Source of the DNA: Anaeromyxobacter terrae
Lineage (GTDB): Bacteria; Myxococcota; Myxococcia; Myxococcales; Anaeromyxobacteraceae
Length of the DNA stretch: 60,608 bases
Direction: 5' to 3'
Assembly: GCF_022690685.1 (NCBI RefSeq)
Contig: NZ_JALCYY010000032.1
Location: 1-60,608, forward strand
The position numbers and the translations under genes were made by a program. This document shows positions 12,458 through 58,347 of the stretch, piece after piece (the stretch's first letter is position 1; the number at the start of each line of letters is the position of its first letter). The notes under the pieces are model-generated. The model had not been told where the DNA came from and searched no databases. It saw only the letters and a list, made by a program, of their open reading frames with translations.

Positions 12458-13288
12458 GTGACCACGGCGACGGCGGAGATCACGGTCGAGGCGCTCGCGC
12501 ACGCGGGGCGCGTGCTGTTCGGCCCGTCGTTCGCGCCCCACGCGAGCGCCTGGCGCGGCGCGCTGCGCGAGGCGTACCGGCGCCGCGCGCTCGAGACTCA
12601 TCCGGACCGGGCGCGCGCGCTCGGCCGTCCCGAGGCGGAGCTCCTGCGCGAGTTCCGCGCGGTGGCGGAGGCCTACCGTGTGCTGTCCGAGGCGGCCCGG
12701 GCGCCGGCTGTCCCGGTCCCTCCCCCTCGCGCCGCTGCCGCCCGCCCGCCGGGACCCGCGGCGGCGCCCCGCTCCTCGCCGCCTCGGCCCTCGCCCGACG
12801 TCCCCCCGCCGTCGCGCGCGGCGCCGTCTCGCCGAGCACCCCGGGCGGCAGTTCCCGCTCCCGCTGCGGGTCCGCGCTCCGCGTACGCCGCGCGCGAGCC
12901 GCTCCCGCGCCGCCGCCTGCGGCTCGGCGAGCTCCTCTACTACTCGGGCCGCGTCCCCTGGTCCGCGTTCGTCGAGGCCGTGGTCTGGCAGCGCGCGCAG
13001 CGTCCCGCGCTCGGCCGGATCGCGGTCGAGCTCGGCTTCCTCGACTCCGCCACGGTCGCCGCCGTGCTCGCGCGCCGCCGCGCGGAGGGCGCGACGGGCG
13101 AGCGATTCGGCGAGTACGCCTTGCGCACGGGCTACCTCACGCGCCTCCAGCTCCTCACGGCGGTGGGTCGGCAGGGGCGCATGCAGCGCCGGATCGGCGA
13201 GTACTTCCTGGAGCGCGGCTGGCTGGACGCCCGCGCGCTCGAGGCGGCGTGCGGGGAGCTCGCGGGGCACAACGCGCGGTACCCGTAG
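12458..13288 (+). CDS. J-domain protein with two tandem MshEN-like modules
   Basis: 276 residues from GTG 12458. Residues 10-80 form a J domain with the Hsp70-activating HPD at 48-50 (ALETHPDRARALG). Residues 81-150 are a Pro/Ala/Arg linker. Residues 155-268 contain four 24-residue units of the form R-x-G-x-x-x-x-x-x-G, at 155-178, 184-207, 216-239 and 245-268; within each pair the spacer is exactly 5 residues. That 24-5-24 layout is the c-di-GMP-binding arrangement of MshEN domains. Units 1 and 3 keep both the leading Arg and the closing Gln; units 2 and 4 lack the closing Gln. No signal peptide, so it is cytoplasmic. Ligand binding is inferred. Confidence 0.75.
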   Translation: MTTATAEITVEALAHAGRVLFGPSFAPHASAWRGALREAYRRRALETHPDRARALGRPEAELLREFRAVAEAYRVLSEAARAPAVPVPPPRAAAARPPGPAAAPRSSPPRPSPDVPPPSRAAPSRRAPRAAVPAPAAGPRSAYAAREPLPRRRLRLGELLYYSGRVPWSAFVEAVVWQRAQRPALGRIAVELGFLDSATVAAVLARRRAEGATGERFGEYALRTGYLTRLQLLTAVGRQGRMQRRIGEYFLERGWLDARALEAACGELAGHNARYP

Positions 13289-56510: not shown

Positions 56511-57626
56511 TCACCCCAGCTCGACGAGCCCCGCGTCCGCGAAGCGACGGATCGCCTTCAGCACGTCGAGCTCGCGAAGCGGCGCCACGCGGGTGAGGTC
56601 GCGGACGTCGCGCCGCCCGTCGCAGCGCGAGAGCAGGTACTTGTCGGCCGACGAGAGCCGCAGGCGCGCCACCTCGCGCGCCGCGAGCTTGAGCCGCGGC
56701 GTCCGGGGCGGCCCGAGGAGCTCCGCCTGGAGCCGCTCCCCGAGGACGCGCTCCGTCTCGGCGAGCAGCGAGCGGGCGGCCTCCGAGGCCGGGGCGAGCT
56801 CCACCGCCCGCGCCGCCACGAGCTCGGCGTCGTCGGCGCGCCCGTCGGCGAGGAGTGAGCGGGCGCGGTCGATGAGGTCGGCCGCGCCGACCGGCTCGGA
56901 GGCGATGGCCGCGGCGAGGGGCGCCGGCGCGGCGCGGAGCGCGCCCTGCCGGGCGAGCGCGTAGAGCCGCTGGTACAGGTGGAAGTCGGTCGCGTGCAGC
57001 GCGAGCGCGAGCTCGTCGATGGTCTTGCCCTCGCGGGCGAGGGCGAGGAGCCGGCCGTCGATTGTGCCGGGGCCGGCCGAGGCGGGCGCAGCGGCCTCGT
57101 CCACGACGAGCGAGGCCGCGCCGCTCGGGAACTCGCCGCGGAACGCGCTCCACGCCGTCGCCCGGAACTCCGCCTCGCGCGCGATGTCGGCGAGCGGCAC
57201 CGCCGCGTCGAGCTCGTCCACGTCGGGCGGGGAGCCGTCGTCGAACCAGAACACGCCCGCGTCCCACAGGAACACGTCGAGGAGGGTCTCGCGCAGCTTG
57301 ATGGCGAGGACGTCGCGGATGACCTCGGGCGAGACGAGGCCGACGAGCGTCAGCACCTTCCCGAGCCGGATCCGGGTCTCCTCCTGCGTCTCGAAGGCCT
57401 TCGCGAGCTGCTCCTCGGAGACGTGCCCGAAGTTGAGCAGGAGCTGGCCGAGGTGCTCGCGCGGATCGTTCGAGCCGGCCCCGATCGCCACGCCGTCGCG
57501 AACCAGGACGGACTTCTTCACGGTGCCGCGCTCGCAGCCGAGCGTCCCGGACATGCGACGCCGCGCGAGCAGGTCGACGAGCTCGGAGAGCGGGAGGACC
57601 GCGAAGCTGCCCATGAGGCCGCGCAT
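56511..57626 (-). CDS. DUF4388 protein with a MshEN-like motif pair
   Basis: 371 residues from ATG 57626; ATG 57614 also fits, and a longer start would overlap the divergent gene. Residues 1-55 match the DUF4388 opening (GSFAVLPLSELVDLLARRRMSG). A 24-residue unit at 58-81 (LGQLLLNFG... closing Gln), a 5-residue spacer and a second at 87-110 (RLGKVLTLVG) give the 24-5-24 layout of MshEN domains. A helical C-terminal half follows, with LIDRARSLLADGRADDAELVAARAVELAP as a TPR-like unit. DUF4388 proteins are common in Myxococcota regulators. Confidence 0.75.
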   Translation of the reverse strand: MRGLMGSFAVLPLSELVDLLARRRMSGTLGCERGTVKKSVLVRDGVAIGAGSNDPREHLGQLLLNFGHVSEEQLAKAFETQEETRIRLGKVLTLVGLVSPEVIRDVLAIKLRETLLDVFLWDAGVFWFDDGSPPDVDELDAAVPLADIAREAEFRATAWSAFRGEFPSGAASLVVDEAAAPASAGPGTIDGRLLALAREGKTIDELALALHATDFHLYQRLYALARQGALRAAPAPLAAAIASEPVGAADLIDRARSLLADGRADDAELVAARAVELAPASEAARSLLAETERVLGERLQAELLGPPRTPRLKLAAREVARLRLSSADKYLLSRCDGRRDVRDLTRVAPLRELDVLKAIRRFADAGLVELG

Positions 57627-57690
57627 CGGGGGCCGAGTGTCGCCCGCGGGGCGGGTGGCGGCAAGCAAGCCGCTGTTGTAGAACCGCGCC

Positions 57691-58347
57691 GTGAAGACGG
57701 AATCGAACGACATCGCGCGGCCGCCCCGGAAGCACGCGCCGCGCCGCGGCGTCCGCCTCGCAGCCGTCGCGACGGCGGCCGTCCTCGTCGCGGCCCTCGC
57801 CTACCTCGCCTACGACCGCTTCGTCACGCAGCCGGCGCTCGAGCGCGCGTCCCTGCTCGGCTTCGGCGTGGACCGCACCGACGTGGCGGCGCCCGCGATC
57901 GAGCTCGAGGCGCTCGACGGCAGCCGCTTCTCGCTCGCGCAGGCGAAGGGGCAGGTCGTCTTCGTGAACTTCTGGGCCACCTGGTGCCCGCCGTGCCGGG
58001 AGGAGATGCCCTCGATGGTGCGGCTCGGGCGGGAGCTCGAGGCGAAGTACCCGGGCCGCTTCCGGATGGTCGCGGTCTCGGTGGACGAGGGCTGGGACCC
58101 GGTGAAGGAGTTCTTCGCCGCGCCGCCCTACTTCGGGAAGCCAGGCCTCGCCGTGGCGCTCGACCCCCAGCAGGTCGCGACCCGTGCCTACTACTGCGCC
58201 GCCCGGGGCGGGGTCTGCCCCGACCTCAAGTTCCCCGAGACCTACATCGTGGACAAGGACGGCCGGCTGGTCGCGTTCGTGATCGGCCCCCGCGACTGGT
58301 CCGACCCGTCCGCGCGGCTCCTCCTCGAGTCGATGATCGGGTCGTAA
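57691..58347 (+). CDS. TlpA-like thioredoxin, membrane-anchored
   Basis: 218 residues from GTG 57691. Helix 21-41 anchors the protein. The thioredoxin domain has FWATWCPPCREEM with the redox pair Cys99/Cys102, and FPETYIVDKDGRL around the cis-Pro. Two extra cysteines (YYCAARGGVC) lie in an insertion. TlpA/ResA-type proteins reduce cytochrome c or periplasmic cysteines; the exact partner is unknown. It overlaps no gene but stands opposite the DUF4388 start. Confidence 0.88.
   Translation: MKTESNDIARPPRKHAPRRGVRLAAVATAAVLVAALAYLAYDRFVTQPALERASLLGFGVDRTDVAAPAIELEALDGSRFSLAQAKGQVVFVNFWATWCPPCREEMPSMVRLGRELEAKYPGRFRMVAVSVDEGWDPVKEFFAAPPYFGKPGLAVALDPQQVATRAYYCAARGGVCPDLKFPETYIVDKDGRLVAFVIGPRDWSDPSARLLLESMIGS

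Follow-up and report, generated by a model that had tools for sequence, protein, structure and literature searches.

What does a co-chaperone do with a row of second-messenger-type modules? The question arises from one gene in the 60,608-nucleotide stretch of Anaeromyxobacter terrae DNA analysed here (contig NZ_JALCYY010000032.1; "the window" denotes this whole stretch). J proteins decide where Hsp70 works. The 276-residue product of the gene, referred to below as the J-MshEN protein, runs from an HPD-containing J domain through a disordered linker of ~65 residues into four 24-residue units of the MshEN type. We consider it slightly better than an even bet that this protein is a soluble class-C J-domain co-chaperone whose modified MshEN-type array acts as a sensor or adaptor and directs DnaK to clients of the c-di-GMP pathway. 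Its features, all on the forward strand, are:

12458..13288, +, whole gene, 276 amino acids, GTG start (from the ORF call, codon-position bias and orthologues)
12485..12712, +, J domain, residues 10-85 (from PF00226, the AlphaFold2 helices and J-domain structures with Z up to 6.8)
12599..12607, +, HPD motif, residues 48-50 (kept in 18 of the 18 homologues covering that region)
12713..12907, +, Pro/Ala/Arg-rich linker, residues 86-150 (predicted disordered, pLDDT 47-69)
12920..12991, +, MshEN unit 1, residues 155-178, RLGELLYYSGRVPWSAFVEAVVWQ (complete at the six key positions in the window protein)
13007..13078, +, MshEN unit 2, residues 184-207, ALGRIAVELGFLDSATVAAVLARR (lacks Arg1; invariant R207 in place of Gln24)
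13103..13174, +, MshEN unit 3, residues 216-239, RFGEYALRTGYLTRLQLLTAVGRQ (complete at the six key positions in the window protein)
13190..13261, +, MshEN unit 4, residues 245-268, RIGEYFLERGWLDARALEAACGEL (lacks the hydrophobic residue 21 and Gln24)

A J domain and four MshEN-type units in one protein

The gene is real and under coding constraint: in the C-terminal domain, it and the closest relative differ at 2 first, 5 second and 17 third codon positions. Pfam DnaJ (PF00226) matched residues 35-79 with 31.3 bits (threshold 27.8; E 2.3e-7), and the AlphaFold2 model places the helices of the J domain at residues 10-21, 31-46 and 59-81 (pLDDT 90-97), a layout in which the HPD motif sits between helices II and III. 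With a score above the curated threshold and the HPD motif in place, the protein belongs to the Hsp40 family via PF00226. The N-terminal J domain of the original prediction was thus borne out by profile, motif and fold, and by the retention of the fusion across phyla.

Behind a linker whose length varies in the alignment of homologues, the array has the layout that had been proposed from the DNA, namely four 24-residue units in two pairs, with spacers of exactly 5 amino acids within pair 1+2 (179-183) and pair 3+4 (240-244). A gap of 8 amino acids separates the pairs. An HN at 271-272, just after unit 4, is conserved in 20 of 21 homologues. The NCBIfam model NF053729 (MshE-type c-di-GMP motif) matched in two stretches with a summed score of 49.6 bits (cut-off 38; E 2.6e-13); the assignment of pairs 155-207 and 216-268 to the MshEN-related proteins holds only for both stretches summed, each pair alone scoring under the cut-off (25.3 and 29.8 bits). 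All ten homologues scanned matched the same model (26-63 bits), and the AT-rich homologue L035 (GC 36%) did so with an E-value of 1.8e-8. Given the E-value of the window protein and the matches in AT-rich homologues, the MshEN match is not a chance one. Pfam T2SSE_N (PF05157) gave no match up to E 1, in a search whose filters drop weak matches; the known T2SSE_N domain has a second subdomain that is absent from the J-MshEN protein. A profile search for a PilZ domain in the protein gave no match either.

The AlphaFold2 model, built with 20 sequences, has a pLDDT of 90-98 for the J domain and for eight helices at residues 156-274, with the disordered linker between them and an overall pTM of 0.47. 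Its top structural match was MshE with c-di-GMP (5htl; Z 9.6, rmsd 1.8 Å over 58 residues), followed by PilF GSPII-B (Z ~9), the PilB N-domain (7lkm, Z 8.5) and then J domains (Z 6.8), where a Z near 9 is modest for helical bundles. Residues 182-242 of the model superpose on 5htl as an MshEN-type four-helix bundle and score above the J-domain and unrelated entries. Foldseek E-values for the fold matches exceeded 1, so that the case for the fold draws chiefly on the VIA second look and on the profiles. Together, the structure search that had been suggested as a check, the NF053729 profile and the conservation of the fusion across phyla support the MshEN-like modules of the original prediction. 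Its pairing of the units stood in part: pairs 1+2 and 3+4 are plain in the sequence, whereas the part aligned in every MshEN-type match (~182-242) corresponds to units 2+3. The comparison yields one alignment per chain, with which similar bundles in other unit pairs remain compatible. Besides, a profile built from the J-MshEN family finds PilF (E 3.1e-9) and runs through three successive units of it (293-387, the third GSPII domain), which gives arrays of more than two units a precedent.

The genome that encodes the nearest homologue (G005) is likewise an Anaeromyxobacter. A match was present in 18 of the 24 genomes of the same family, most of these matches being full-length or split orthologues, while the wider order outside the family was sparsely populated, with two further convincing matches (G029, G096). 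In a scan of named genomes, the same layout of a J domain and four units turned up at 30-40% identity in MAGs that carry the labels Desulfonema, Desulfarculales, other deltaproteobacteria and Spirochaetes. The combination is real, and the fusion is conserved in several phyla: Myxococcota, Desulfobacterota and Spirochaetes.

In two genomes, we also observed short paralogues (L016:1286-1795 and L025:1474-1980, both on the + strand) that consist of a J domain with units 1 and 4 only; there, a spacer of exactly 5 residues connects unit 1 to unit 4, as though a single internal period had dropped out.

Ligand-site residues of the array

MshE grips each guanine by Arg1, the amide of Gly3, hydrophobic residues at positions 2, 17 and 21, and Gln24 (PMC5013675). 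The original prediction was right about the closing Gln missing from units 2 and 4, and the losses extend to the opening Arg of unit 2 and to the hydrophobic residue 21 of unit 4: in the window protein, unit 2 has Ala for Arg1 and Arg for Gln24, and unit 4 has Cys at position 21 and Leu for Gln24. Across the 21 homologues, Gln24 is missing from unit 2 in all and from unit 4 in 20, and the guanine-stacking Arg1 of unit 2 is lost in 19 (Ala, Pro or Ser at position 1 in 18). Proline occupies the Arg1 position of unit 3 in 11 of 21 homologues and that of unit 4 in 10 of 21, and Gly3 of unit 1 is Ala in 14 of 20. An MshEN c-di-GMP receptor has all six key residues in both half-sites; units 2 and 4 fall short of this, and the J-MshEN protein is therefore not classed as such a receptor. 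The PilB-like proteins of the same genome, by comparison, have nearly canonical sites (11 of 12 key positions).

How much such changes matter can be read from Thermus thermophilus PilF, whose GSPII-A module fails to bind c-di-GMP and has Ser in place of Arg, Ala in place of Gly and His/Arg in place of Gln; measurable binding needed the Arg and both Gln restored, and the Gly was needed for high affinity (PMC12002112). As comparable changes abolish binding there, canonical high-affinity c-di-GMP binding appears doubtful for most J-MshEN orthologues. The earlier reading of the sites as those of an intact c-di-GMP receptor finds no support in this form, with neither pair 1+2 nor pair 3+4 having both half-sites whole.

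On the other hand, Q178, R182, P183, R207 and Q239 are invariant in all 21 homologues, which indicates that something is still selected and argues against simple decay. Of 123 columns just nine are invariant, and these include three of the four that correspond to position 24 (P about 0.001). In addition, R182 (21 of 21) and R244 (20 of 21) lie one or two residues ahead of the canonical Arg positions, making a shifted Arg contact possible.

Candidate roles of the array and genomic context

In the reading that we favour, the J domain, with its HPD intact, would engage DnaK and trigger its ATPase, as is usual for the family, while the flexible linker would tether it to what profile and model portray as a four-unit array of MshEN (GSPII) hairpins. 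The array keeps a conserved polar set (Q178, R182, R207, Q239) at or beside the sites by which MshE holds the c-di-GMP sugar-phosphate. It may recognise a protein of the c-di-GMP/type IV pilus network or, through an altered pocket, a cyclic dinucleotide, and recognition would thereby deliver DnaK to clients of that network. That the array binds a cyclic dinucleotide we would rate somewhat below even. A more far-reaching version can be put forward tentatively, in which a co-chaperone family of at least three phyla has a tail of four MshEN units whose pocket has been re-engineered (Arg shifted upstream, one Gln replaced by Arg), senses c-di-GMP or another cyclic dinucleotide and gates the recruitment of DnaK.

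Alternatively, the array could be a true c-di-GMP receptor, in which the intact half-sites of units 1 and 3 each hold one guanine and binding alters the access of the J domain to DnaK. The complete sets of key positions in these two units of the window protein, the overall NF053729 score above the curated cut-off and the conserved R182 and R244 are all in keeping with this, as are c-di-GMP genes adjoining the J-MshEN gene in three other lineages. Yet no adjacent pair has both halves intact, the Arg of unit 3 that the window protein retains is Pro in about half of the homologues (11 of 21, as above), and loss of the motif II Arg by itself abolished binding in PilF constructs (PMC12002112), so that we regard this alternative as conceivable but on the whole somewhat improbable.

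The neighbourhood evidence just mentioned deserves a closer look. In the window, the J-MshEN gene stands alone, between a divergent gene for a 4Fe-4S protein upstream and a convergent one for a DUF938 methyltransferase downstream, and it has no DnaK neighbour. The genes adjoining its homologues include two for PilZ proteins (L039), one for a PilZ protein (L040), one for a GGDEF protein (L035) and a convergent cheA (L041). In 3 of 8 loci, a PilZ or GGDEF gene is no more than 2 kb away, against 0.22 expected from the genome-wide densities of PilZ and GGDEF genes (P about 0.001, a value that is optimistic as the two families were picked after the loci had been seen). Their proximity is suggestive only as a sign of a c-di-GMP link. 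An explanation by operon logic was rejected, since neighbours are not conserved between phyla and no conserved operon partner emerged. As for Hsp70 itself, the source genome holds about ten full HSP70 genes, five of which adjoin a J-domain gene (contigs C56, C13, C51, C75 and C46).

The same PilZ neighbours in L039 and L040 would also be in keeping with a scaffold role for a degenerate MshEN array, which would bind no nucleotide but only proteins, e.g. PilZ proteins, as the N-domain of Xanthomonas PilB does, with the J domain bringing in DnaK. The erosion of the ligand residues fits this as well, and 7lkm, one of the best structural matches, is a PilB N-domain with PilZ. However, no PilZ neighbour was found in the Anaeromyxobacter loci, and of the four positions equivalent to the phosphate-contacting Gln, three (Q178, R207 and Q239) never vary, which would be unexpected if only other surfaces mattered. 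Both in this form and as the general proposition that the array binds only proteins, we hold the idea to be possible rather than probable.

It is very improbable, and was already disfavoured, that a generic Ala/Leu/Arg-rich helical repeat mimics the MshEN pattern by coincidence: the GC-rich genome with its biased composition, the high Foldseek E-values and the lack of a PF05157 match would allow for it, but AT-rich homologues match NF053729, the Gly positions keep the MshEN period, the family profile retrieves PilF, and the top structural matches are all MshEN-type chains.

Relation to known systems and to other proteins of the genome

Among the closest parallels to the array of the favoured co-chaperone is the MshEN domain of Vibrio cholerae MshE (Wang 2016, PMC5013675), with which it shares the 24-residue motif, the 5-residue spacer and the four-helix bundle, and which is its best structural match. 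In contrast to MshE, the J-MshEN protein has four units instead of two and an N-terminal J domain, lacks the C-terminal subdomain and the ATPase, and has the Arg/Gln residues of units 2 and 4 replaced. T. thermophilus PilF likewise carries several MshEN-type modules in one chain (GSPII-A, -B and -C), and the ligand-site changes of its GSPII-A are of the same kinds as those of pair 1+2; PilF, however, is a pilus motor ATPase with intact, c-di-GMP-binding modules B and C (PMC12002112).

The original prediction had deemed a link between a second messenger and an Hsp70 partner unusual, but there is precedent in Myxococcus xanthus, namely the PilZ-DnaK proteins CsdK1 and CsdK2 (PMC10313047), together with PilZ proteins that carry DnaK or DnaJ domains (PMC8316039). 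As in the J-MshEN protein, a c-di-GMP-type domain is fused to a component of the Hsp70 system, again within Myxococcota; the M. xanthus proteins differ in using PilZ rather than MshEN, and CsdK is the Hsp70 itself, not its J partner. Cyanobacterial DnaK1/DnaJ3 resemble the proposed system as a dedicated pair with ties to polysaccharide output and to the motors of type IV pili, but differ in that the part of the source available to us reports no MshEN domain for them (PMC9239167). DnaJ is absent from the MshEN partner domains listed in the main text of Wang 2016 (PMC5013675), and no description of a J-MshEN fusion was found in the literature searched. What appears to be new is hence the J-MshEN array itself, while the link between c-di-GMP domains and Hsp70 was already known. 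Beside the PilZ-DnaK proteins of M. xanthus, a J protein with a nucleotide-sensor-type array would place protein quality control under the direct influence of a second messenger. Moreover, with some contacts invariant and others lost, the family is a natural experiment on which MshEN residues ligand binding requires.

Other MshEN-type proteins are encoded in the same genome. The window contains a second one (56511-57713, - strand), which has a DUF4388 (PATAN-type) domain at residues 35-188 and, at 88-137, an NF053729 motif of 46.6 bits (cut-off 38) with 10 of 12 key ligand positions. Among the ten J-domain ORFs of the genome, three carry some MshEN-type unit. Two further J proteins (L097:1976-3793 and L098:1169-2839, both on the - strand) consist of a DUF4388 domain with an embedded MshEN-like motif, followed by the J domain and TPR; their motifs are weaker and stay under the curated NF053729 cut-off. 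Finally, DUF4388-like proteins with an MshEN pair were seen at L101, L104, L105, L106 and L107, some of them nearly canonical (11 of 12 key positions in L101), hinting from their residues that some DUF4388 proteins may be c-di-GMP sensors.
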